Both the position numbers and the translations under genes were made by a program. A DNA stretch of 64,000 nt from Halomonas sp. M20 (lineage in GTDB: Bacteria > Pseudomonadota > Gammaproteobacteria > Pseudomonadales > Halomonadaceae). This document shows positions 5,192-25,575 of this stretch, piece after piece. Within the stretch, counting starts at the first letter, position 1. The number at the start of each line of letters is the position of its first letter. Location of the stretch: positions 62,001 through 126,000 of the forward strand of contig NZ_JACNMQ010000008.1 in assembly GCF_020622265.1 (NCBI RefSeq). The letters run 5' to 3'. The notes under the pieces are model-generated. The model did no database searches. It saw only the letters and a program-made list of their open reading frames with translations, and was not told the DNA's origin.

Positions 5192-6439
5192 TCAGGCACC
5201 ACGCGTCGGGGTATTACCCGAATTGATGTCCGTTCTTGAAAGATCCTGCTCCGTTGGTTTGCCCGTACTGGATGATGTCGAGGATGAACTGCCCGGTGTT
5301 CCGGTTCCGGTAGTCCCCGTGCTTCCTGGAGTTCCTGATGTCGACGCAGTCCGAGACGAAGTGCCAGTAGTGCCCGTCGTGGATGAAGAGCCTGTAGTGG
5401 ACGAGCTGCCATGGCTGCTCGACGAGCCTGCAGTCGTACCCCGAGAATCAGGCGCTTCAGGAGCATCCTGCTTCGCTTTCTGGGCTTTTTCTTCAACCTT
5501 GGACTGAGCCTTGTCTGCTTGTTTCTGGCCTTCCTCGGCGGCGCGATCGACCAACCTGTCCCGAGTGTCTCCCAGCTGCTCGTCCTCGAAGCGTGTAGAA
5601 GGCAGCAGGCTGCCGATGGCGGCACCAATGGCAACGCCTAGAGCCGCAGTCGCCAAAGGATGTTCCTGAATGAATTGCGTCGTTTGCTGGCCGGCGCTCT
5701 GAGCGCGATAAGAGGCACCGCGCATGGCAGAGCGTGAACCGCTTTTCATTCGTGAGGTACCATCACGCATACTGCTCGACATGCTCTGAGCGCGGCCTTT
5801 TACGCTACTGGACATGTCTTGAGCACGCTCCTTCACGCTGCTCGACATGTTTTGTGCCTTTTCCTTGGCACCACTCATACGTCCCTTGCCTTGGCGGTCG
5901 TCGTGATCCGAATCTCCGACGGTGCCCGTCGTATACGCTGCCGGCGGCACGCGCGTAGTCGTGGCCCCCGAAGTCGTGCCGGTGGTTGGCGGAACGCTGG
6001 TGGAAGAGGGTACGGAAGTCGTTGGCGGCACTCGGGTGGAGTCGCTCGGTAGACCTGCCGTAGTGGCGGATGACGTGCCGGTCGGTGCCGGACGAGTCGT
6101 CATGGGGTAGTGGCGGCTGTCTTCGTAACCATACATGTCGACGTCGTCACGATCACGACGGGAATACTTGCTGGGGTTACGCTGAGCCATGATCAGCCAG
6201 CCCAGGCCGACCCCGGTAAGCACGAAAGGAACCGGGTTGTTCTTGATGGTCTCGCTCAGATTGGAGGCAAATTCATTGGCCCCGCCACCGCGCACATAGT
6301 CCATCGTAGTATCGATCAATCGCCGAGGTGAGATCCTGTCCTCGAGTTCGTGCAGCGTGCGATCCAGTCTTTCACGATTCTCTTCGATATCGGCTTCGAT
6401 CTCTTCCGGCTTGCGGGTATCCTGATTATTATCGCTCAT
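5192..6439 (-). CDS. DUF3618-domain membrane protein with LEA-like repeats and Ser/Thr-rich tail
   Basis: A 415-residue protein. Residues 10-60 match the DUF3618 pattern (PEEIEADIEENRERLDRTLHE), followed by a hydrophobic segment near 68-86. Residues 115-175 are Pro/Thr/Ser-rich. Three 11-residue repeats of the form AQxMSSSVKxR occur at about 195-227. A second hydrophobic helix, HPLATAALGVAIGAAIGSLL (near 260-279), resembles the C-terminal anchor of ElaB/YqjD proteins, and a low-complexity Ser/Thr/Gly tail begins near residue 335. It overlaps the YqjE-like gene by 11 bases and has AAGGAG before its ATG. It is the last gene of the operon. Function is unknown; the operon suggests envelope stress or stationary-phase physiology. 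Confidence 0.75.
   Translation of the reverse strand: MSDNNQDTRKPEEIEADIEENRERLDRTLHELEDRISPRRLIDTTMDYVRGGGANEFASNLSETIKNNPVPFVLTGVGLGWLIMAQRNPSKYSRRDRDDVDMYGYEDSRHYPMTTRPAPTGTSSATTAGLPSDSTRVPPTTSVPSSTSVPPTTGTTSGATTTRVPPAAYTTGTVGDSDHDDRQGKGRMSGAKEKAQNMSSSVKERAQDMSSSVKGRAQSMSSSMRDGTSRMKSGSRSAMRGASYRAQSAGQQTTQFIQEHPLATAALGVAIGAAIGSLLPSTRFEDEQLGDTRDRLVDRAAEEGQKQADKAQSKVEEKAQKAKQDAPEAPDSRGTTAGSSSSHGSSSTTGSSSTTGTTGTSSRTASTSGTPGSTGTTGTGTPGSSSSTSSSTGKPTEQDLSRTDINSGNTPTRGA
5759..5857 (-). repeat. Three tandem 33-bp coding repeats (11-residue units)
   Basis: The DNA encodes AQNMSSSVKER, AQDMSSSVKGR and AQSMSSSMRDG back to back. The 11-residue period and amphipathic, Ala/Lys/Arg-containing pattern resemble the 11-mer repeats of group 3 LEA proteins. 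The copies are very similar at DNA level, suggesting recent internal duplication. Confidence 0.7.
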
Positions 6440-6872
6440 TTTTCAGCTGCTCCTTAGCCTCGACTTTGTGATGTTGAGCCATTTCCTTGTCTCTCTGAAC
6501 GCTGGAAATAGTGCGCTGGGGCATCAGGTTCGTGGCCTTGAGCTTTTTCTTGCCAGTTTGCAACATGATGAACCCGACAATGAGGACGATCACGCCAACG
6601 ATCAGAGCTGAAAGCCAAGGGGTTTCCAGTACCGTATCCAGCCCAAAGACTGCAGCTGCCAGCAGTACCAGAAAGCCACACATGAGTACCGCGCCCGCGG
6701 CTGCTATCGAGCCGACACCGGTACCGATCTGGGAAACCTTTTCACCCATCTCAGCTTTGGCAAGATCGACTTCGTTACGCACCAATGACGTTACTTCGTT
6801 CGTCAAACTTGATATCAAGGCGCCAAAGGACGAGGAACTTTCTCTCGTCGTGTTTCTGTTGTCTGTATCCAT
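6429..6872 (-). CDS. YqjE-like 'phage holin family' membrane protein
   Basis: A 147-residue inner-membrane protein with an N-terminal amphipathic region (SLTNEVTSLVRNEVDLAKAE) and two hydrophobic segments at about residues 53-77 and 84-105, followed by a basic tail. This is the layout of the Phage_holin_3_6/YqjE family, which is chromosomal and not tied to phage lysis. GGGAGG lies 8 bases before the ATG. It is the middle gene of three; the same pairing with an anchored YqjD-like protein is found in E. coli yqjD-yqjE. Molecular function is unknown. Confidence 0.75.
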   Translation of the reverse strand: MDTDNRNTTRESSSSFGALISSLTNEVTSLVRNEVDLAKAEMGEKVSQIGTGVGSIAAAGAVLMCGFLVLLAAAVFGLDTVLETPWLSALIVGVIVLIVGFIMLQTGKKKLKATNLMPQRTISSVQRDKEMAQHHKVEAKEQLKNER

Positions 6873-6948
6873 GCTATTAGCCTCCCTGGCTAGTTGCGTT
6901 GATTTTTTTCACTTGAAATTTCTGTATTAGAAACACGAGTTTCAAGTC

Positions 6949-7566
6949 TCAGTAAGGCCTTGAGCCCAGTGAGTCGCTTGATGTACCCGCCGTCGTGCTG
7001 CCAACGCCTGACGTGGACGTAGTAGACCCAAGTGAAGACGAGCCTGTAGTAGACCCACGCGAGGAAGAACCAGAGTAGGAGGTGTTCGATGAACTGTTTT
7101 GCTGGGAACTATTCAAAAAGCGTGCCAGGAAAAAGCCGGCTGCAATTGCGCCGCCCAGGAATACAGCGGGTTGACGACGGCTATAGTCCTGTACCTGATG
7201 CATCAGGCCATCCAGGTTCTGTTCGCGCAATCGCTGAGAGATGCTATCCGTAGCCCTGGCGATGTTGTTTGCATAGCCAGAAAAGGACGTTTGATCCTGT
7301 TCATCGAACTCTTTAGCCATTTTACGGAAAGCAGACGATAGTCCTTCCGCCTGGTTAGCAGCGTTCTCTTTCTGCTGGTCGAACATGCCCTCTGCTTGCT
7401 TGCGAGCCGCATCCTTGACTTCACCGGCAGTCTGCCGAGCCTTGTTCTTGGCTTCTTCAGTGTGGCGGGAGTTTCCAGCAACATTTGAGGAGGAGCTCAT
7501 GTTACCGGAGGATTGAGAGCCCGTAGAAGGTGAGTTCGAGGTATTGGAATTTTCCGGATCGATCAT
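6949..7566 (-). CDS. YqjD/nutrient-deprivation-type anchored stress protein
   Basis: A protein of about 205 residues and first gene of the operon. After a Ser/Asn-rich N-terminus, residues 37-80 form a charged amphipathic helix rich in Ala, Lys, Glu and Gln (NKARQTAGEVKDAARKQAEG) with an 11-residue LEA-like period. Next come a helical region and the anchor QPAVFLGGAIAAGFFLARFL, similar to the YqjD/ElaB C-terminal membrane segment, then a Ser/Gly/Thr tail. I prefer the second ATG (ending at 7566): the AGGGAG motif lies 8 bases before it but only 2 before the first ATG at 7572. Role unknown; YqjD-type proteins tether ribosomes to the membrane in stationary phase, which may not apply here. Confidence 0.65.
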   Translation of the reverse strand: MIDPENSNTSNSPSTGSQSSGNMSSSSNVAGNSRHTEEAKNKARQTAGEVKDAARKQAEGMFDQQKENAANQAEGLSSAFRKMAKEFDEQDQTSFSGYANNIARATDSISQRLREQNLDGLMHQVQDYSRRQPAVFLGGAIAAGFFLARFLNSSQQNSSSNTSYSGSSSRGSTTGSSSLGSTTSTSGVGSTTAGTSSDSLGSRPY

Positions 7567-7572
7567 GCGCAT

Positions 7573-7943
7573 ATCTCCCTATTTAACCCAGATTAATATT
7601 ACGAAGAAAACAAGGAGCTTCCAGCTGCCTCTTCATTGTTTTCGGTTCGCCAAGGTAAATGTAGTGTATCGGCGCGCGGTGTCAACCCTCAATTGAGTGG
7701 TAGCTTTTTTACAATATCTCAGGAATGTTCTGGCGTGAAGTCGAAAGCTTTGAACAGATACTTAATCCAGCGCCTCAAATATTAAATTGTTATTTTTTGT
7801 TAAATAATAACGAGGGTAATATAAATAGTAGCTTTAGACCAAGTAGCGAGATAATCGTCAGATGTTCTTCATCATGGGTTATTGGAGGTAGAAGTTATCT
7901 TCTTTTAAGGTTTTGAATTTATGCAGTTCCATGAGGAATTCCA
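7573..7943. other. Intergenic region, AT-rich, with divergent promoters
   Basis: A 371-base spacer between two divergent transcription units. The left part carries the leader and promoter of the yqjD-like operon. The right part, about 7690-7935, is much richer in A/T than its surroundings and includes an imperfect inverted repeat, GTTATT...AATAAC, near 7789-7811. I see no convincing gene; the one short open frame (7725-7916) has no ribosome site and no recognisable protein. The last bases hold the GAGG ribosome site of pncC. Confidence 0.6.
7658..7685 (-). promoter_or_regulatory. Sigma-70-type promoter of the yqjD-like operon
   Basis: On the minus strand a consensus -35 TTGACA (7680-7685) is followed, after 16 bases, by TACATT (7658-7663) as -10. 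It lies about 90 bases upstream of the first gene of the three-gene operon. Confidence 0.6.
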
Positions 7944-8450
7944 ATGTCATTTCTGGAAAACGTTACGCAATATCTCATAGAGCATGAGTTAAAGTTGGCT
8001 ACAGCGGAATCTTGCACTGCGGGGTTGATGGTTTCGGAACTGGCCAGAATACCGGGTAGTGGCCAGGCGATTGACTGCGGACTGGGAGTCTACTCGCCTG
8101 AAGCAAAAAATCGCTATCTTGGCGTACGTTACGCCACTATCGACAACTTCGGGCTTACCAGCGAGGAAACCTCAAGAGAAATGGCGCTTGGGGCGCTTGA
8201 TAACAACCACGCCGATCTCGCCATTGCTAACACGGGTATTGCTGGCCCTCAGCCTCAAGGAGACATTCCCGTAGGAACAGTATGTTTTGCTTGGGCTTTT
8301 CGTCATGCGGAAAAGAAATATCTGTACTCCGAGACTCGTCGCTTCAATGGGGATCGAAACGACGTGCGCCTTGCCGCAGCCCATCATGCGCTCGAGCGTG
8401 TTCTTTACTACCATCAGGCAGTACTTGAAGGAAAGGCGCCGCCCTTGTGA
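7944..8450 (+). CDS. pncC: Nicotinamide-nucleotide amidohydrolase PncC (CinA C-terminal family)
   Basis: A 168-residue single-domain CinA C-terminal protein, the length of E. coli PncC. The family deamidates NMN to nicotinate mononucleotide, recycling the NMN released by DNA ligase. Visible motifs are TAESCTAGLMVSELARIPGS (residues 19-38), where the serine of ESCT is the catalytic residue in the family, and NTGIAGPQPQGDIPVGTV. The ATG has GAGG 8 bases upstream. It is followed after 60 bases by nadE on the same strand, which makes NAD from the downstream product of this pathway, so the pair forms a logical NAD-recycling unit. Confidence 0.85.
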   Translation: MSFLENVTQYLIEHELKLATAESCTAGLMVSELARIPGSGQAIDCGLGVYSPEAKNRYLGVRYATIDNFGLTSEETSREMALGALDNNHADLAIANTGIAGPQPQGDIPVGTVCFAWAFRHAEKKYLYSETRRFNGDRNDVRLAAAHHALERVLYYHQAVLEGKAPPL

Positions 8451-14952: not shown

Positions 14953-15780
14953 ATGCAAACCCTCGATGAACAGCAACGCCAGCGACTGCTACACGGTGTC
15001 GATGAAATCGGCCATCAGGTAATGGACGTTTATCGTCGGGATTTCGACGTCGAAACCAAGGCGGACAACAGCCCCTTGACCGAAGCCGATCTGCTCGCCA
15101 ATCGGCTGTTGACTGCACTATTGCAGGAGGTGCTGCCTGATACCCCGGTGCTGTCCGAAGAAGCGAAGCAGGCAAGCTATGACGTTCGCCGCCACTGGAC
15201 TCGCTACTGGTTGATCGATCCCATCGATGGCACCAAGGAGTTCGTCAAGCGCAGCGATGAATTCACCATCAACGTGGCACTTATCGAAAATGGCGTGCCG
15301 GTCTTTGGCATCGTGCAGGCGCCGGCGTTGCAGCAGACCTGGTGGGGGCAGTCCGGGGTAGGGGCGTTCAAGCGCTCCGGTGGCGAAAGCCATGATATTC
15401 AAGCCAGGGTGCTACCCAGCCCTGAACAGACGCGATGGAAGATCGTTGGCAGCCGCTCCCATGGCGCTGCCGCCTTCGAGGCATTCTGCCGTGAGTTGCC
15501 GAGCCACGAGCGGGTCAGCATGGGCAGTTCCTTGAAGCTGTGTCTGGTCGCCGAGGGTGTGGCGGATCTCTATCCGCGTCTGGCGCCCACCTGCGAGTGG
15601 GATACTGCCGCCGCCCACGGCGTGGTGCTGGCAGCAGGCGGCGATGTGCTGGATGCCAGGACGTTGGAACCCTTGCGCTATAACCGTAAAGAGAGCCTGA
15701 AAAATCCCTTTTTCATTGTCTGTAAGGGGTCGGACGAGCGCTGGGTGAAAGCGCTCAAGAACGCGGTATCCCTGATATGA
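14953..15780 (+). CDS. cysQ: 3'(2'),5'-bisphosphate nucleotidase CysQ
   Basis: CysQ removes the 3' phosphate of PAP (and PAPS), the by-product of sulfotransferases and of PAPS reductase, preventing its toxic build-up. The 275-residue protein has the Mg2+ site of the inositol-monophosphatase superfamily: PVLSEEA (Glu ligand) and LIDPIDGTKEFVKRSDEFT, with the C-terminal segment CEWDTAAAHGVVLAAGG. AGGATG lies before the ATG. Its position 6-10 kb from a SulP transporter and a PAPS-type sulfotransferase is suggestive, though not one operon. Confidence 0.9.
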   Translation: MQTLDEQQRQRLLHGVDEIGHQVMDVYRRDFDVETKADNSPLTEADLLANRLLTALLQEVLPDTPVLSEEAKQASYDVRRHWTRYWLIDPIDGTKEFVKRSDEFTINVALIENGVPVFGIVQAPALQQTWWGQSGVGAFKRSGGESHDIQARVLPSPEQTRWKIVGSRSHGAAAFEAFCRELPSHERVSMGSSLKLCLVAEGVADLYPRLAPTCEWDTAAAHGVVLAAGGDVLDARTLEPLRYNRKESLKNPFFIVCKGSDERWVKALKNAVSLI

Positions 15781-19973: not shown

Positions 19974-21686
19974 TCAGCGCTCATGCTGGGTCAACTCCTT
20001 CCAAGCTGAATAGGTGCTCAGAAAGACACGCCCGGTCAGGGATTCGATGAGATCGGAGTATTGCAGACGGTCCATCACTGGCCCCTTGACCTCCGCCAGA
20101 TGCAGGGTGACCTGGGAGTCCTTGAGACGCGAGTTGATCGCCTTGAGGCTTTCCAGCGCCGAGGCGTCGATGAGGTTGACCGCGGAGCAGATCAATACCA
20201 CGTGATCGATGCCGGGGCGGGTGGCGATCAGATCGTAAAGGGTATCTTCCAGATAGCGGGCGTTGGCGAAATAAAGGCTTTCATCAATGCGTAGAAGCGC
20301 CACTTGCGCGCTGGTTTCAACCTGGTGACGAGCCAGGTTGCGAAAATGCTCGGTGCCAGGTACGCGGCCTACCAGGGCGCTATGGGGGCGGCTGGTGCGA
20401 TAAAGAAATAGCGCAATCGACAGGGCGACACCAGCGAGGATACCAATTTCCACCCCCTCCAGCAGGGTCAATACCAGGGTGGCCAGCAGGGCGGCGAAGT
20501 CGCTGCGGGAGTAGCGCCAGGTATGGCGCAGGGCATCAATGTCCACCAGGGTCAGGATCGATACCGTGATGACCGCGGCCAGGGTGGCAATGGGTAGAAA
20601 TTCGATGAGCGGTGTAAAGAAAAGCGTTACCAGGGTGATGCCCAGCGCTGCCACGACACCCGCGATGGGCGTGCGGGCGCCGGCATCGAAATTGATCACG
20701 GTACGTGACAATCCTCCGGTGACCGGCATGCCGCCGGTGAAAGCGGCGGCGAGATTGGAAGCGCCCAGGCCGATCAATTCCTGATCCGGAGAGATGCGTT
20801 CGCGTCGTTTGGCCGCCAGCATCTGGCCCATGGAAACAGACTCCACGAACCCCACCACGCTGATCAACAACGCCGGCACCCATAGTTGGCGCCAGAGGGA
20901 TGCGTCAAAGGTAGGTAACGTCAAGGGCGGTAAACCGCTGGGTATCTCGCCCACCACGGCCACCCCCATCGAGCTGAGATCGAAGTGCCAGCAGGCAAGC
21001 GTTGTCAACGCCACCGCATAGACCGGGCCTGCTCGGGTGATCAGGTTGGCGGGTTTGCTCGGCATCCCCACTCTGGCCAGAAGGGTGCCTCCATGGCGTC
21101 GCAGTACGATCAAGAGCGTCAGCGTAGCGGCACTGACGGCAATGGTAGGCAAATTGATGTCACTCAGATGCGGGATCAGGCTGCCGATCAGCTTGGGTAG
21201 GGTGAAACCCGACGAGTCGATACCCAGCAAATGGGCCAGCTGGCTGGCGGCGATCAAAAGGCCCGAAGCGGTAAGAAAGCCGGAGATCACCGGGTGGCTC
21301 AGGAAGTTGGCAAAAAAGCCCAGACGCAGTAATCCCATCACGCTCAACATGAGGCCAGACAGAAACGCCAGAATCAGAGCGGCCTCGACATACTCCGCGG
21401 AACCCGGGGCGGCGATGCCGGAAAGCGCCGCTGCCGTCATCAGGGCCAGGATCGCCACCGGGCCCACCGCCAGCGTGCGGCTCGAGCCGAATACCGCATA
21501 GAGCAACAGCGGCAGAATACTGGCGTACAGGCCCACCACGGCGGGCAAACCTGCCAGGAGCGCGTAGGCCAAGGACTGGGGAATGACCATGACCATCACG
21601 ATCAGGCCCGCGATCACGTCGTAAGTGAACAGACTGCGTTGATAATACGGTAGCCAGGTAACAATAGGCAGGTAGCGCTTGAGCAT
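19974..21686 (-). CDS. SulP-family inorganic anion transporter with STAS domain
   Basis: A 570-residue inner-membrane transporter. The N-terminal membrane domain begins with the family signature DVIAGLIVMVMVIPQSLAYA and GLPAVVGLYASILPLLLYAV, and has about 12-14 segments. GMPVTGGLSRTVINFDAGAR is the conserved core loop. The C-terminal 110 residues form a STAS domain (VALLRIDESLYFANARYLED and VNLIDASALESLKAINSRLK). Many SulP members carry sulfate, but bicarbonate and other anions are also known. It is divergent from the sulfotransferase module with 237 bases between starts, which supports, without proving, a sulfate role. Confidence 0.88.
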   Translation of the reverse strand: MLKRYLPIVTWLPYYQRSLFTYDVIAGLIVMVMVIPQSLAYALLAGLPAVVGLYASILPLLLYAVFGSSRTLAVGPVAILALMTAAALSGIAAPGSAEYVEAALILAFLSGLMLSVMGLLRLGFFANFLSHPVISGFLTASGLLIAASQLAHLLGIDSSGFTLPKLIGSLIPHLSDINLPTIAVSAATLTLLIVLRRHGGTLLARVGMPSKPANLITRAGPVYAVALTTLACWHFDLSSMGVAVVGEIPSGLPPLTLPTFDASLWRQLWVPALLISVVGFVESVSMGQMLAAKRRERISPDQELIGLGASNLAAAFTGGMPVTGGLSRTVINFDAGARTPIAGVVAALGITLVTLFFTPLIEFLPIATLAAVITVSILTLVDIDALRHTWRYSRSDFAALLATLVLTLLEGVEIGILAGVALSIALFLYRTSRPHSALVGRVPGTEHFRNLARHQVETSAQVALLRIDESLYFANARYLEDTLYDLIATRPGIDHVVLICSAVNLIDASALESLKAINSRLKDSQVTLHLAEVKGPVMDRLQYSDLIESLTGRVFLSTYSAWKELTQHER

Positions 21687-21923
21687 CTACTTCTCACGAC
21701 GAGAGTGACGAGGGAACATCCATTTTTCCAGGCATGATGAGGGGTTGGCCCAAGGGGTGCAAGAAGCCGTCCAGGTTCTCCGCTGCTACAAGAAAGCGTT
21801 GAATGTTTATTGTATCGACGTTCGCGCTTTCCACAGGATTGTTTATGCTGTCTTGAAAAGAACGGCGTTTGTAAATGCAGTGGGACACTGAAGGCCTTTT
21901 TAGGGCTTTTTCAGGAAAAGAGT

Positions 21924-23270
21924 ATGCACAATTCGGATCGCCTTGGCTTGGCCATGTTCTTCATGGCCATTGCCTTGCTGGCATTCATTGGCGGCGCTTA
22001 TATCGCACTAGCCAAAGTGTTCCCTTACGATTATCTCAACAATGCCTACCAGGCAGGCAGAGCGCTTCTCGTTCAGCGCTCGATAGACGACCCTTACACC
22101 GAGACCGACCTCTGGCGACCGGCGCGTACCGATGAGCGCGGCGTCACCATCAACGATCCCGAGCAGGCGTATCAAGGCTACACCCTTTACACCTCCGGAG
22201 ACGGCACCTACGCGCAACTCATCGACATGAAGGGCGATGTGGCCCATCGCTGGGAGTTGCCCTTTAGCGAGGTGTGGCAGGAAACACCCAGTGGTCGGAC
22301 GCCTCGCCCCGACGATCTGATGTACTGGCGCAAGGCACGCATGCTGCCCAACGGCGATCTCATCGCCATCTACATTGCCGCCAATGACTCCCCCTGGGGA
22401 TACGGGCTGGTCAAGATCGATCGCGATTCCCAGCTGCTCTGGAGCTACAAGGCGCATGTGCATCACGATCTGGATATCGCCGCGGATGGGCGCATCGTCA
22501 CCTTGACCCATGATTTCACCGACGAGGAGATCAAAAAATTTCCTCAATTGCCTTCCCCTTGGCTCAACGACTATATGGTGGAACTCGACGGTGACAGTGG
22601 TGACGAGCTGAGCAAGACATCATTGCTCCATGCGTTTTTCGACTCTCCCTATGCGGGGATGCTGTATGCAACGCCGCATTTCGGCATTGCGGATCCGATG
22701 CATACCAATAGCGTCGAGTATCTCGAGCAGGCCCAGGCGGAGGCCTTTGCGCCGGCTGAAGGCAAGGCCGGGCAGGTCATCCTGTCGTTTCGCCATCCTG
22801 GCGCAATCGCATTGGTCGATCCCGAATCCAGCAAGATGAACTGGGCGATTCGCGGGTCATGGATGGGCCAGCACTATGCCCGGGTGCTGGAAAACGGCAA
22901 CTTCACCTTGTTCGACAATCTGGCCAACTATGAAAAAGGGAATCGATCTCGAATATTGGAAGTGAACCCACAGAGCAATGCCATTGTCTGGTATTACACT
23001 GGAAACGATGAGCATCCCTTCGATAGTGGCTTGCGCGGTGCAATCGAAACCTTGCCCAACGACAATCGCCTGATCACCGAATCGGATGGCGGCCGGTTGT
23101 TCGAGGTCACGCCCGCAGGCGACATCGTCTGGGAGTTCATCAATCCAGTGCGAGGGGGTGACAAGGATCAGTTCATCCCGGTGGTCTCATCGGCCCAGCG
23201 CATCGCTCCTGAACAACTCGGCGCGGATTTTCGTGCCGTTATCGATACCAACAGGAGAACTTCATCATGA
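21924..23270 (+). CDS. Arylsulfotransferase (ASST)-like membrane-anchored beta-propeller protein
   Basis: About 448 residues. A single N-terminal membrane anchor (GLAMFFMAIALLAFIGGAYI) leads to a periplasmic domain with repeated propeller blades: QLIDMKGDVAHRWELP, LVKIDRDSQLLWSYKAHVHH, ILEVNPQSNAIVWYYTG and LFEVTPAGDIVWEFINPV. This is the pattern of the arylsulfotransferase family. Candidate active-site histidines occur in AHVHHDLDIA and LTHDF. The ATG at 21924 with AGGAAAAG upstream is preferred over a longer frame from 21810. It is first in a co-directional module and overlaps the next gene. Whether it transfers sulfate or only shares the fold is unknown. Confidence 0.7.
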   Translation: MHNSDRLGLAMFFMAIALLAFIGGAYIALAKVFPYDYLNNAYQAGRALLVQRSIDDPYTETDLWRPARTDERGVTINDPEQAYQGYTLYTSGDGTYAQLIDMKGDVAHRWELPFSEVWQETPSGRTPRPDDLMYWRKARMLPNGDLIAIYIAANDSPWGYGLVKIDRDSQLLWSYKAHVHHDLDIAADGRIVTLTHDFTDEEIKKFPQLPSPWLNDYMVELDGDSGDELSKTSLLHAFFDSPYAGMLYATPHFGIADPMHTNSVEYLEQAQAEAFAPAEGKAGQVILSFRHPGAIALVDPESSKMNWAIRGSWMGQHYARVLENGNFTLFDNLANYEKGNRSRILEVNPQSNAIVWYYTGNDEHPFDSGLRGAIETLPNDNRLITESDGGRLFEVTPAGDIVWEFINPVRGGDKDQFIPVVSSAQRIAPEQLGADFRAVIDTNRRTSS

Positions 23271-23599
23271 TGCGTTCAAACAAAGTAGTTGTTACGTCCT
23301 TGATATTGACGGCAAGCGTCGTCTTTCCCTTCGCCGCTCAAGCCTATGTGGGCCCTGGTGCGGGGCTGAGTCTATTGAGCGCCCTATGGGGCATCATTGC
23401 CGCGATCGGAATCGCCTTGTTCTTCGTTCTGATGTGGCCGATACGACGCATGATACGACGGCGTAAGGAGCGCTTAGCCTCATCGCTCCCGCAATCGACA
23501 CCCACTACACCATCCCCGCAACCCCAGGTCCAACAGAACCAGCGTGAGGCAAGCCCAACAAGACACTCGTCGGATTCTGTTCCGCCTCCATCGTCCTGA
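23267..23599 (+). CDS. Small exported membrane protein with YVGPGAG motif
   Basis: A 110-residue protein overlapping the previous gene by 4 bases (ATGATG at the TGA). A signal sequence (TSLILTASVVFPFAAQA) is followed directly by YVGPGAGLSLLSALWG, a second hydrophobic helix (IAAIGIALFFVLMWPI), a basic cluster RRMIRRRKER and a Pro/Ser/Gln-rich tail. The YVGPGAG start of the mature protein resembles small proteins I have seen next to sulfatase-like and sulfotransferase genes, but I know no assigned function. AGGAG lies 9 bases upstream. Tight coupling suggests it works with the ASST-like protein. Confidence 0.65.
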   Translation: MMRSNKVVVTSLILTASVVFPFAAQAYVGPGAGLSLLSALWGIIAAIGIALFFVLMWPIRRMIRRRKERLASSLPQSTPTTPSPQPQVQQNQREASPTRHSSDSVPPPSS

Positions 23600-23716
23600 T
23601 TCGTCGCGAGCCGGTGGGTCGTCAAGCCTTCCTCCCGCCGGCTTGTTTGCCTTCATGACTACACGAATGCACGTATAGGTTCACGGACGCTAGATACGCT
23701 GGCTATAGGAGGTTGC

Positions 23717-24463
23717 ATGGGATTGCTCGATCTTCCCGCACCGGTGTTTGCGGCACTGGATGATGGCATGGCCTGGGTGTTGCCGCCGACGCCACGACTG
23801 GCGCTGTGGGCCGCGATCGCGGGAACCTGCACGCTGCTTCTTTATCGGGCGCTTTCGCCTCAGGCGCGCATCGGCCGGGCCAAGCGTACGGCGCGTGAGG
23901 CTAGACAGCGGTTGAATCGCTTCGATGGTGAGTTTGCCGATGCAGGACCGCTGATCAAGGAACAGTTTGTTGCGGCTTTCAAGCATCTTGGCCTGGTACT
24001 GCCTTCCACGCTGCTTTCCATCCTGCCGCTGCTGGCGCTGCTGGTATGGATCGAGACCGCCTATGGCTATACCTATCCCGCCCCAGGGAATACGCCAACC
24101 CTAACGACGGTGCCGGGTGAATTTCAAAGCGACTGGATCGGCGAGGGTAAGCCGCCCGAGCAGAACGGTGAGCGATCGCCCTTGCGTCATATTCTAGTGC
24201 GCGACGATGAGGGTGTGATAACTGAAGTGGTGCTGACCGCGCCGGTACCGGTAATTGCTCAACGACAGTGGTGGAACTGGCTGGTTGCCAACCCATTGGG
24301 TTATCTGCCTGAGAATAGCGCGCTGCGGCGTATCGAAATCGCGCTTCCACAGCAGACATATCTGCCGTTCGGACCACCTTGGGTGCGCTCCTGGATGGTG
24401 ATCTTCTTTCCAGTGATGTTGATCGTATCGTTGCTGGTCTATCGATGGGCACGTATAGAATGA
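23717..24463 (+). CDS. Three-segment membrane protein, possibly Oxa1/EMC3-like architecture
   Basis: A 248-residue protein of no family I can name securely. Layout: hydrophobic segment about 28-47, a basic helical stretch RIGRAKRTAREARQRLNRF (about 53-71), a second segment HLGLVLPSTLLSILPLLALL (about 94-113), roughly 100 polar residues likely periplasmic, and a C-terminal segment (about 225-242). The order TM, basic coiled coil, TM, loop, TM resembles the DUF106/EMC3/TMCO1 branch of the Oxa1 insertase superfamily; this is inference from layout only. AGGAGG lies 5 bases before the ATG. It overlaps the sulfotransferase start (ATGA), implying translational coupling. Confidence 0.6.
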   Translation: MGLLDLPAPVFAALDDGMAWVLPPTPRLALWAAIAGTCTLLLYRALSPQARIGRAKRTAREARQRLNRFDGEFADAGPLIKEQFVAAFKHLGLVLPSTLLSILPLLALLVWIETAYGYTYPAPGNTPTLTTVPGEFQSDWIGEGKPPEQNGERSPLRHILVRDDEGVITEVVLTAPVPVIAQRQWWNWLVANPLGYLPENSALRRIEIALPQQTYLPFGPPWVRSWMVIFFPVMLIVSLLVYRWARIE

Positions 24464-25575
24464 GCAGCCATAAGAGTGACGATGACTTTTCAGTTCCCAC
24501 CTGGATGCATGTACTGGGCGGTTGGGTAAACCGACATCCGCGCACCTGGATTCGCCTGGGGAACATGGAAACGCGACTGGTTCAAGAAATGATCGAGGAC
24601 ATACGGGTGGATCGTCCACTCTATGTTGCCGGGCTGGCGCGTTCCGGGACCACGGTGCTCCTTGAGCGTCTGGCCGAGCACCCTGAGGTAGGCACCCATC
24701 GCTATGTGGACTTTCCACTGCTCCATACGCCGTACTGGTGGAACCGGTGGCTTTCTCTGGTGCCGCGGGGTAAGGAAGTTGCTCAGGAGCGTGCCCATAA
24801 GGACGGTATCGCCGTCACGTCCCAGAGCCCCGAGGCCTTCGAGGAAATGCTTTGGATGACCTTTTTTCCTCATGCTCACGATCCGTCGAAAAGCTCGATT
24901 CTTGGGCGCGATGCACAGCATCCGGCATTCGAGCGCTTCTACGACGATCATATCCGCAAGCTACTGGCCATTCACAAGCGAAAGCGCTACGCAGCCAAGG
25001 GCAACTATAATCTGGCACGACTGGGTTATCTGCATCGTCTTTACCCCGATGCTCGCTTTCTGCTGGCAATTCGTTCGCCGGTCGGACACATTGCCTCGCT
25101 GATGAAACAGCAGGCGCTTTTCGCCTGCGGCGAAGCCCATAATCCCCGTGCACTGGAGCACATGCGCCGAGTAGGGCACTTCGAGTTCGGTCTTGACCGC
25201 CGTGCCATCAATGTGGGCGATGACGCGCTTGCCAGCAAGATCGAAACGCTCTGGCGTGAAGGGTACGAGGTGGAAGGATGGGCGCGTTACTGGGCAGAAC
25301 TCTATCGCCATGTGGCTGACACGCTAGAGGCGGCTCCCTCTCTACGCGAGGCTTGCCTGGTTCTGCGCTATGAGGATCTATGCAATCAACCGATGCAGAC
25401 CCTGACGAAGGTTTACGCCCACTGTCAGCTTGACGTCGATCCATCGGCACTCGCGCAGGCGGCGGCGGGGCTACATTTTCCCACCTACTACCAACCGCGC
25501 TTCAGTGACCAGGAGATGACGATGATCAAGGACATGACAAAGGAGACGGCTGCACGCTTTGGCTACGACGAATAA
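24460..25575 (+). CDS. PAPS-dependent sulfotransferase family protein
   Basis: A 371-residue protein with the P-loop-like PAPS phosphosulfate-binding motif VAGLARSGTTVLLERLAEHP at about 57-75 and a second conserved element, FLLAIRSPVGHIASLM, near residue 200, where the 3'-phosphate-binding Arg and Ser lie. The C-terminal LVLRYEDLCNQP segment is also typical. It has no signal or membrane segment, so it should act in the cytoplasm on an unknown acceptor such as a lipid, glycan or small molecule. The ATG at 24460 overlaps the stop of the previous gene. CysQ in this window could clear its PAP by-product. Confidence 0.8.
   Translation: MSSHKSDDDFSVPTWMHVLGGWVNRHPRTWIRLGNMETRLVQEMIEDIRVDRPLYVAGLARSGTTVLLERLAEHPEVGTHRYVDFPLLHTPYWWNRWLSLVPRGKEVAQERAHKDGIAVTSQSPEAFEEMLWMTFFPHAHDPSKSSILGRDAQHPAFERFYDDHIRKLLAIHKRKRYAAKGNYNLARLGYLHRLYPDARFLLAIRSPVGHIASLMKQQALFACGEAHNPRALEHMRRVGHFEFGLDRRAINVGDDALASKIETLWREGYEVEGWARYWAELYRHVADTLEAAPSLREACLVLRYEDLCNQPMQTLTKVYAHCQLDVDPSALAQAAAGLHFPTYYQPRFSDQEMTMIKDMTKETAARFGYDE

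Follow-up and report, generated by a model that had tools for sequence, protein, structure and literature searches.

Arylsulfate sulfotransferases (ASSTs) have been known in bacteria for more than 40 years, and a 2026 review (PMC13426309) describes their natural substrates as unidentified and the action of Cpz4 in caprazamycin biosynthesis as their sole well-established role. According to the same review, all reported arylsulfotransferases (ASTs) but one putative exception depend on aryl sulfates and are unable to use 3′-phosphoadenosine 5′-phosphosulfate (PAPS). In the caprazamycin pathway, Cpz4 is supplied with a triketide pyrone that has been sulfated by a PAPS-dependent enzyme (PMC4257720); the enzymes are the PAPS-dependent sulfotransferase Cpz8 and the ASST Cpz4 (Tang et al., 2013, as cited in PMC4257720). 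Here, we describe an operon in a stretch of 64,000 nucleotides (hereafter, the window) from the 3.9-Mb genome of Halomonas sp. M20. Its four plus-strand genes encode an ASST-like sulfuryl transferase (P0001, 21924..23270), the YVGPGAG protein (P0002, 23267..23599), a membrane protein resembling the Oxa1 superfamily (P3, or P0003; 23717..24463) and a PAPS-type sulfotransferase (ST, or P0004; 24460..25575).

The pairing of an ST with an ASST, together with a membrane protein of a superfamily that has lipid-scrambling members, suggests a two-step sulfation of the cell envelope, a reading that we hold to be evenly balanced between right and wrong. In the cytoplasm, the ST would transfer sulfate from PAPS to a phenolic or other aryl carrier, yielding an activated aryl sulfate. 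P3 and the membrane-anchored YVGPGAG protein would present this carrier, in whole or by its sulfated head, on the periplasmic face of the membrane. There, the ASST would accept the sulfate on His317 and transfer it to an acceptor in the envelope, which is probably a glycan. The gene set, the PAPS and ASST residue sets, the Oxa1-likeness of P3 and an either-or pattern of ASST and AlkP-superfamily genes were all computed. What we infer goes further: the ASST would draw its donor from the ST, P3 would carry that product across, and a glycan would be the acceptor. The more specific proposal, which we consider less likely than not, is that the aryl-sulfate carrier crosses the inner membrane with the help of Oxa1-superfamily proteins from a non-YidC branch, thereby letting cytoplasmic PAPS feed a PAPS-independent periplasmic ASST.

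Re-reading of the window bore out the gene positions, the strands and the two joints given in a preliminary description of this DNA: ATGA overlaps link ASST to YVGPGAG (23267-23270) and P3 to ST (24460-24463), and 117 bases separate YVGPGAG from P3. This gap (23600-23716) contains an imperfect inverted repeat noticed by eye (AGCCGGTGGG / CCCGCCGGCT), which is not among the calls of a terminator scan of the window.

Because P3 is unlike anything known, it served as bait, and a pattern-based scan of GTDB genomes recovered 55 loci besides the window, in Halomonas, Salinicola, Alcanivorax, Pseudomonas, Stutzerimonas, Thalassospira, Parvibaculum, Dongia, a metagenome-assembled genome (MAG) of Desulfobacteraceae and others. 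A same-strand ST lies within 3.3 kb of P3 at all 55 loci (truncated where the contig ends in L036, L052 and L057), YVGPGAG was found on 54 by a hidden Markov model (HMM) search, and an ASST is present on 39. The preliminary description had treated the four genes as one module, and they do stay together in other genomes. ST and P3 are directly adjacent or have YVGPGAG alone between them, except at L056, where two more genes intervene; the ST precedes YVGPGAG and P3 at six loci with AlkP genes (see below), and P3 precedes the ST at all others. The flanks vary, the most frequent further gene cluster occurring at 13 of the 55 loci only.

Joint presence and absence was followed in 58 related genomes, eight of which encode P3 (including five of the 14 from the window's own genus). 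The ASST profile recovered the same eight genomes at E ≤1.7e-162 and, more weakly, genome G053 (nine of 58 in total). For the ST, the same eight scored E ≤1.4e-100, G053 6.6e-74 and seven others 1.8e-7 or weaker (16 of 58), and for YVGPGAG seven of the eight scored E ≤3.4e-32, G053 6e-17 and three others at least 2.6e-5 (11 of 58), the missing one being G047, whose contigs are broken at that place. The co-occurrence of the four genes is thus confirmed to exceed chance. P3 is uncommon in a broader sample (seven of 274 genomes of the class, own genome counted). In the P3 tree, Salinicola (Halomonadaceae) groups with Alcanivoracaceae (support 99/97), and Pseudomonadaceae fall within Halomonadaceae sequences with weaker support (84/88 and 91/88); moreover, the P3 of Modicisalibacter muralis (L024), of the same genus as the window, is 52% identical to the window's protein, versus 62% for Pseudomonas indica. 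The tree and the identity pattern therefore indicate horizontal transfer, and they point to a self-contained operon that appears to move between lineages.

By its residues and its predicted fold, P0001 is an ASST-type transferase. It scores above the Pfam cut-offs of PF14269 (102.6 bits, cut-off 27; 3.5e-29) and PF05935 (30.4 bits, cut-off 24.2; 2.6e-7). An N-terminal membrane anchor (residues 3-30) precedes a beta-propeller that should face the periplasm. In an AF2 model (pLDDT 90.5), the best Foldseek matches are the Cpz4 entries 9kf6 and 9kf4 (E 4.3e-17, TM-score 0.55-0.59), numerous other propellers matching at 9.3e-12 or weaker; Cpz4 is also the closest solved relative by profile (1.5e-7). 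The ASST of uropathogenic Escherichia coli (EcAST), looked for under the entry codes that we take to be its own, was not among the best 50 Foldseek rows listed. In an alignment of 63 rows, distant members among them, the expected active site is conserved in nearly all non-gap rows: H181 of the HH180-181 pair (22461..22466), the first active-site histidine region, in 61/61 (aligned with a His-Asp of Cpz4 in the profile comparison); H260 and N262 of the H-x-N pair (22701..22709) in 61/61 and 60/61, respectively; R290 (22791..22793), expected to coordinate the sulfuryl group, in 59/61, with Lys in two; and H317 (22872..22874), the expected sulfo-histidine nucleophile within W-x-x-Q-H, in 61/61 (aligned with the His of the Cpz4 QHD motif in the profile comparison). 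The catalytic residues of EcAST are given as His252, His356, Asn358, Arg374 and the nucleophile His436 in PMC13426309, and the H-x-N spacing of P0001 equals that of His356/Asn358, a likeness by pattern and not by computed alignment. With its residue set intact, the enzyme looks active, and its earlier portrayal as a membrane-anchored, ASST-like propeller, which should face the periplasm, is supported.

The ASST alignment of the P3 loci holds 37 rows, namely the window and 36 of the 39 loci; L038 (partial), L049 (a near-duplicate) and L063 were left out. In the last of these, from a Pseudomonas, the ASST is split across two reading frames (L063:6080-7611). A second, off-module ASST copy was seen in a genome that also has a module copy (L090:5425-6852, G016 C8), and high-scoring remote copies occur in four Salinicola genomes without a module ASST.

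The ST appears to be a PAPS-type sulfotransferase, expected in the cytoplasm, and it looks active. It scores 77 bits with PF13469 (cut-off 27; 3.2e-21), and an alignment of 37 of 56 sequences gave a favourable answer on the PAPS-binding residues, whose absence the preliminary description had named as a reason to abandon the module: both motifs are invariant or nearly so. The 5′-phosphosulfate loop, L-A-R-S-G-T-T (residues 59-65; 24634..24654), has L59, A60, R61, G63 and T65 invariant, and in the 3′-phosphate motif (R205 to S213; 25072..25098) R205, P207, A212 and S213 are invariant. The closest solved relatives in a PDB profile search are protein-tyrosine sulfotransferases (1.7e-9), the match being confined to short segments near the cofactor-binding regions and a further one towards the C terminus. 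As to cofactor supply, adenosine 5′-phosphosulfate (APS) kinase is a PAPS-making enzyme, and such a kinase or a CysN/C-like fusion lies directly behind the ST in all five Pseudomonadaceae loci; in the M20 genome, an APS kinase gene lies some 59 kb ahead of the window.

P3 matches no Pfam or NCBIfam model, scans of both having ruled out an ordinary Pfam family. Its sole profile match among 177,635 sequences is MJ0480 (E 1.2e-5). In the AF2 model, secondary structure assignment (DSSP) gives an N-terminal helix (residues 8-19; 23738..23773), a first membrane helix (24-46; 23786..23854) and a third membrane helix (226-245; 24392..24451). Between them lie a basic helical hairpin, expected to be cytoplasmic (49-68 and 73 to about 87), that leads into the second membrane helix (to residue 116; 23861..24064 in all), and a beta-rich domain, expected to be periplasmic (117-225; 24065..24391), that contains W-W-N-x-L-x-x-N-P-x-G-Y-L. 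Three membrane helices with a hairpin after the first make up an Oxa1-type layout in this model, the orientation being read from basic residues only. In a 54-row alignment (the window and 53 of the 55 loci, L029 and L049 excluded), Q49 is invariant and K56 nearly invariant in the hairpin, and W185, W186, N192, P193, G195 and L197 are invariant. The best row of a structural comparison, in which Foldseek gave no match at E ≤0.001, is 7tut_8, which we take to be TMCO1. P3 thus resembles proteins of the DUF106/EMC3/TMCO1 branch, that is, non-YidC members of the Oxa1 superfamily, and with the MJ0480 and 7tut_8 rows its initial label of ‘insertase-like’ has gained evidence. Some members of the Oxa1 superfamily act as lipid scramblases in vitro and in simulations (PMC10491306). 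Proteins of this superfamily also insert membrane proteins, and their core is described as membrane helices with a cytoplasmic helical hairpin after the first (PMC8675477). Among the titles and abstract openings listed from the open-licence literature, none describes a bacterial DUF106-like protein, which is weak evidence of absence.

The YVGPGAG protein stays below the cut-off of every Pfam and NCBIfam model. As read from its sequence, it consists of a signal peptide, a conserved mature N-terminal motif, one transmembrane segment and a basic tail. Y27, G29, P30, G31, A32, G33, W57, P58 and R60 are invariant in an alignment of 45 of the 52 sequences found by BLAST (window counted). Among 65 family members selected by the family HMM, Y-x-G-x-G is present in 65 and A-x-A, the mark of signal-peptide cleavage, just ahead of it in 62. 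Since A-x-A directly precedes Tyr27 (23345..23347), the mature protein should start with this tyrosine at the outer face of the membrane, with one membrane helix after it. In G053, a YVGPGAD protein directly precedes an ASST, with no sulfotransferase in the 12-kb region (L092:5408-7050, contig C12).

The ASST was sought by whole-genome search in 15 of the 16 genomes that lack it at the P3 locus. A full-length ASST turned up away from the locus in all nine genomes without an AlkP pair (best E 1.2e-179 to 7.5e-79) but in none of the six with two AlkP-superfamily genes near the ST (L042, L056, L059-L062). The sixteenth case, L052, is identical to the 9,008-base contig G047:C296, and the ASST of G047 lies on a different contig. 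No broken ASST remnants were found by tblastn (E ≤0.01) in the 16 loci. Enzymes of the AlkP superfamily typically act as hydrolases or transfer head groups. One AlkP gene ends right before the ST or overlaps it at all six loci; the other, sulfatase-like, runs on the opposite strand in L056, and L060 has a short version of it; the two loci scanned with Pfam gave PF00884 and PF01663. Read by eye, the sulfatase-like protein of L061 is without Cys/Ser-x-Pro-x-Arg, the motif of true sulfatases. The either-or pattern is not fully clean: with the L061 AlkP protein as reference, the ASST genome of L046 shows a relative of 42% identity, and four Salinicola ASST genomes show weak matches (in the six AlkP-locus genomes, the top match is 64-100% identical each time); moreover, several of the genomes are MAGs and the six AlkP loci are related. 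The periplasmic enzyme seems to be needed but exchangeable, with the AlkP pair taking the place of the ASST at six loci. L061 also contains short reading frames with the repeated translated peptides SIHAPAEGAT and FQSTRPRRAR (L061:10433-13101), presumably a CRISPR array translated as protein.

Of 349 genomes sampled across the phylum, 17 encode ASST relatives at E ≤1e-15, and 16 regions from 15 of these 17 (own genome and G016 excluded) were surveyed. An ST lies within about 4 kb of the ASST in nine of them (L116-L119, L122, L124, L125, L129 and L130, L129 being the contig of L022 again), seven of which also have YVGPG; L088 likewise has ASST, YVGPG and ST. By reading, the ASST/ST sets of L122 and L124 adjoin putative polysaccharide genes (flippase-like and glycosyltransferase-like), neighbours that would fit a glycan acceptor. 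In L126, L127 and L128 (ASST near 5600-8080), the ASST is next to putative ABC transporter ATPase and permease genes with no ST, and these ASSTs perhaps serve the uptake and use of sulfate esters.

A carrier between the ST and the final acceptor becomes more likely because Cpz4 works with a phenolic donor made by a PAPS enzyme. In the preliminary description, the ST sulfated a lipid or glycan in the cytoplasm and an envelope step followed. That interpretation is partly supported; the analogy with Cpz4 favours a carrier over a lipid or glycan as the direct target of the ST. No carrier-making gene, such as the one for the type III polyketide synthase of caprazamycin, is among the four genes, which speaks against the relay; the carrier would therefore have to be an ordinary phenol of the cell. 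One candidate is a phenol of the membrane, for instance a quinone precursor. It is also tempting, if bold, to suggest that the phenol could be the invariant N-terminal Tyr of the mature YVGPGAG protein itself, sulfated before insertion by an ST that is similar to tyrosylprotein sulfotransferases (TPSTs).

Further observations weigh against the relay. Sixteen of the 55 loci have no ASST of their own, and seven of the 16 distant ASST regions have no ST (L120, L121, L123, L126-L128 and L131), so ASSTs also serve other functions. A putative AST of Haliangium is reported to use PAPS itself (PMC13426309). The place of P3 is held by a membrane protein of 234 or 249 residues in L117 and L118 and by one of 125-142 residues in L088, L119, L122, L124 and L125, both with a layout alike by eye; L116 has no reading frame of at least 80 residues there. 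Kinship with P3 was not shown by hhalign for the longer pair (P 0.015, probability 3%) or the shorter set (P 0.055, probability 1%), and PDB searches with both sets gave matches only at E >1. The Oxa1-likeness of P3 has its own weak points: hhalign of P3 against a 119-residue MJ0480 fragment reached a probability of only 60%, and Foldseek with the P3 model remained above the threshold given earlier. PF01956 does not match P0003, is met by one of 54 P3 members at E 0.48 and has no match above cut-off in the window's own genome, and P3 is therefore not filed as a member.

The sulfation could also be more direct, with the ST sulfating the final lipid or lipid-linked glycan in the cytoplasm, P3 and YVGPGAG aiding its export, and the ASST or AlkP enzymes only editing or removing sulfate. 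This version, which is near to that of the preliminary description, would accommodate the AlkP genes close to the ST at the six of 55 loci whose genomes are without an ASST, but we consider it unlikely, as it has to contend with an ASST that is a transferase by residues and predicted fold, with a sulfatase-like protein in L061 that lacks the motif of true sulfatases by eye, and with the precedent of Cpz4, whose sulfate comes from the phenolic donor of a separate PAPS enzyme (PMC4257720). Alternatively, P3 may be a dedicated insertase for YVGPGAG or for the ASST anchor and take no part in carrier movement, the relay then depending on a phenol sulfate that diffuses freely. Oxa1-superfamily proteins do insert membrane proteins (PMC8675477), the helices of P3 match, and YVGPGAG is a small, single-span protein on nearly every locus; nevertheless, the 109-residue beta-rich domain of P3, with its strongly conserved motif, lies outside the described Oxa1 core, and the ASST anchor reads as an ordinary signal-anchor, which leaves us rather doubtful of such a role.

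An explanation without any envelope product would be detoxification or scavenging, the ST conjugating environmental phenols and the ASST shuffling sulfate among external ones. Several of the module-carrying genera are marine or hydrocarbon-associated. The known ASTs accept many phenols (PMC13426309). Yet it would not account for why P3 and YVGPGAG occur at nearly all loci, why an APS kinase sits behind the ST or why ASST and AlkP genes follow an either-or pattern, and we find this explanation quite improbable. To the idea that the genes are chance neighbours with separate functions we give practically no credence: it would suit SulP, mostly a neighbour in the Halomonas lineage, but the gene set recurs at 55 loci across several classes with otherwise variable flanks, and the joint presence and absence in the 58 relatives refutes it by counts.

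The SulP anion transporter (19974-21686, above the TIGR00815 cut-off), on the minus strand and divergent from the four genes, had been counted into the sulfation set, which was not borne out: SulP lies beside the module at three of the 55 loci (L009, L010 and L031, all Halomonas), with a 26%-identical SulP at L042, and it was dropped as a module member. CysQ (14953-15780, above the TIGR01331 cut-off) was found where the preliminary description placed it, 6-10 kb away (7.9 kb from P3). A role of cysQ in the pathway is not supported, as it was seen at two of the 55 loci (L009 and L010), a weak negative: the flanks of at most 8 kb barely reach this position, so its absence elsewhere says little. 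An MdoG-family gene lies about 1.1 kb or less downstream in the opposite direction at 14 of the 55 loci (eight Salinicola, five of the Alcanivorax group and Litchfieldella anticariensis; Pfam was run on three of the 14); this family acts in periplasmic glucan synthesis (PF04349). By tblastn, there is no MdoG gene within the window, and three lie elsewhere in its genome. As Alcanivorax and Salinicola are sisters in the P3 tree, the adjacency may be one shared event. The MdoG neighbours hint at periplasmic glucans as the acceptor in those lineages, a suggestion that we would not expect to hold. Searches for sulfated periplasmic glucans or sulfated exopolysaccharide in these genera listed no paper that was relevant by its title and abstract opening.

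The operon supplies a likely source of the ASST donor, namely the PAPS enzyme of the same operon, and the relay could explain the origin of the sulfate for a long-known enzyme class. It points to a general route for sulfating envelope molecules outside the cytoplasm, and P3 points to a bacterial non-YidC Oxa1-type protein tied to small-molecule or lipid chemistry and not to general protein insertion; if P3 indeed moves the carrier, this would be a new kind of membrane step. Among the titles and abstract openings listed from the open-licence literature, none describes this operon, again weak evidence of absence.

Read as a relay, the module would be a variant of caprazamycin-type sulfation, with which it shares a PAPS enzyme and an ASST in one cluster and, in Cpz4, the nearest solved relative of P0001. 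However, caprazamycin belongs to Streptomyces secondary metabolism and has a polyketide carrier, whereas here a Gram-negative operon of four genes combines an anchored ASST with an Oxa1-like P3 and YVGPGAG, with no carrier synthase among them. EcAST is similar in its periplasmic, PAPS-independent sulfuryl transfer, in the H-x-N spacing and in a comparable Arg/His set (unaligned), but it sits with the Dsb pair DsbL/DsbI and needs a disulfide (PMC13426309), in contrast to P0001, which sits with ST, P3 and YVGPGAG. The ST shares the R-S-G-T-T loop with TPST1/2, its nearest solved relatives by profile, but it matches them in short stretches only and is expected in the bacterial cytoplasm. Finally, P3 has in common with the Oxa1 superfamily (archaeal YidC/DUF106 MJ0480, EMC3, TMCO1 and GET1) the three membrane helices, the hairpin after the first and the match to MJ0480; it differs in being bacterial and yet not YidC-like, and in the predicted beta-rich domain that replaces two extra helices between helices 2 and 3.

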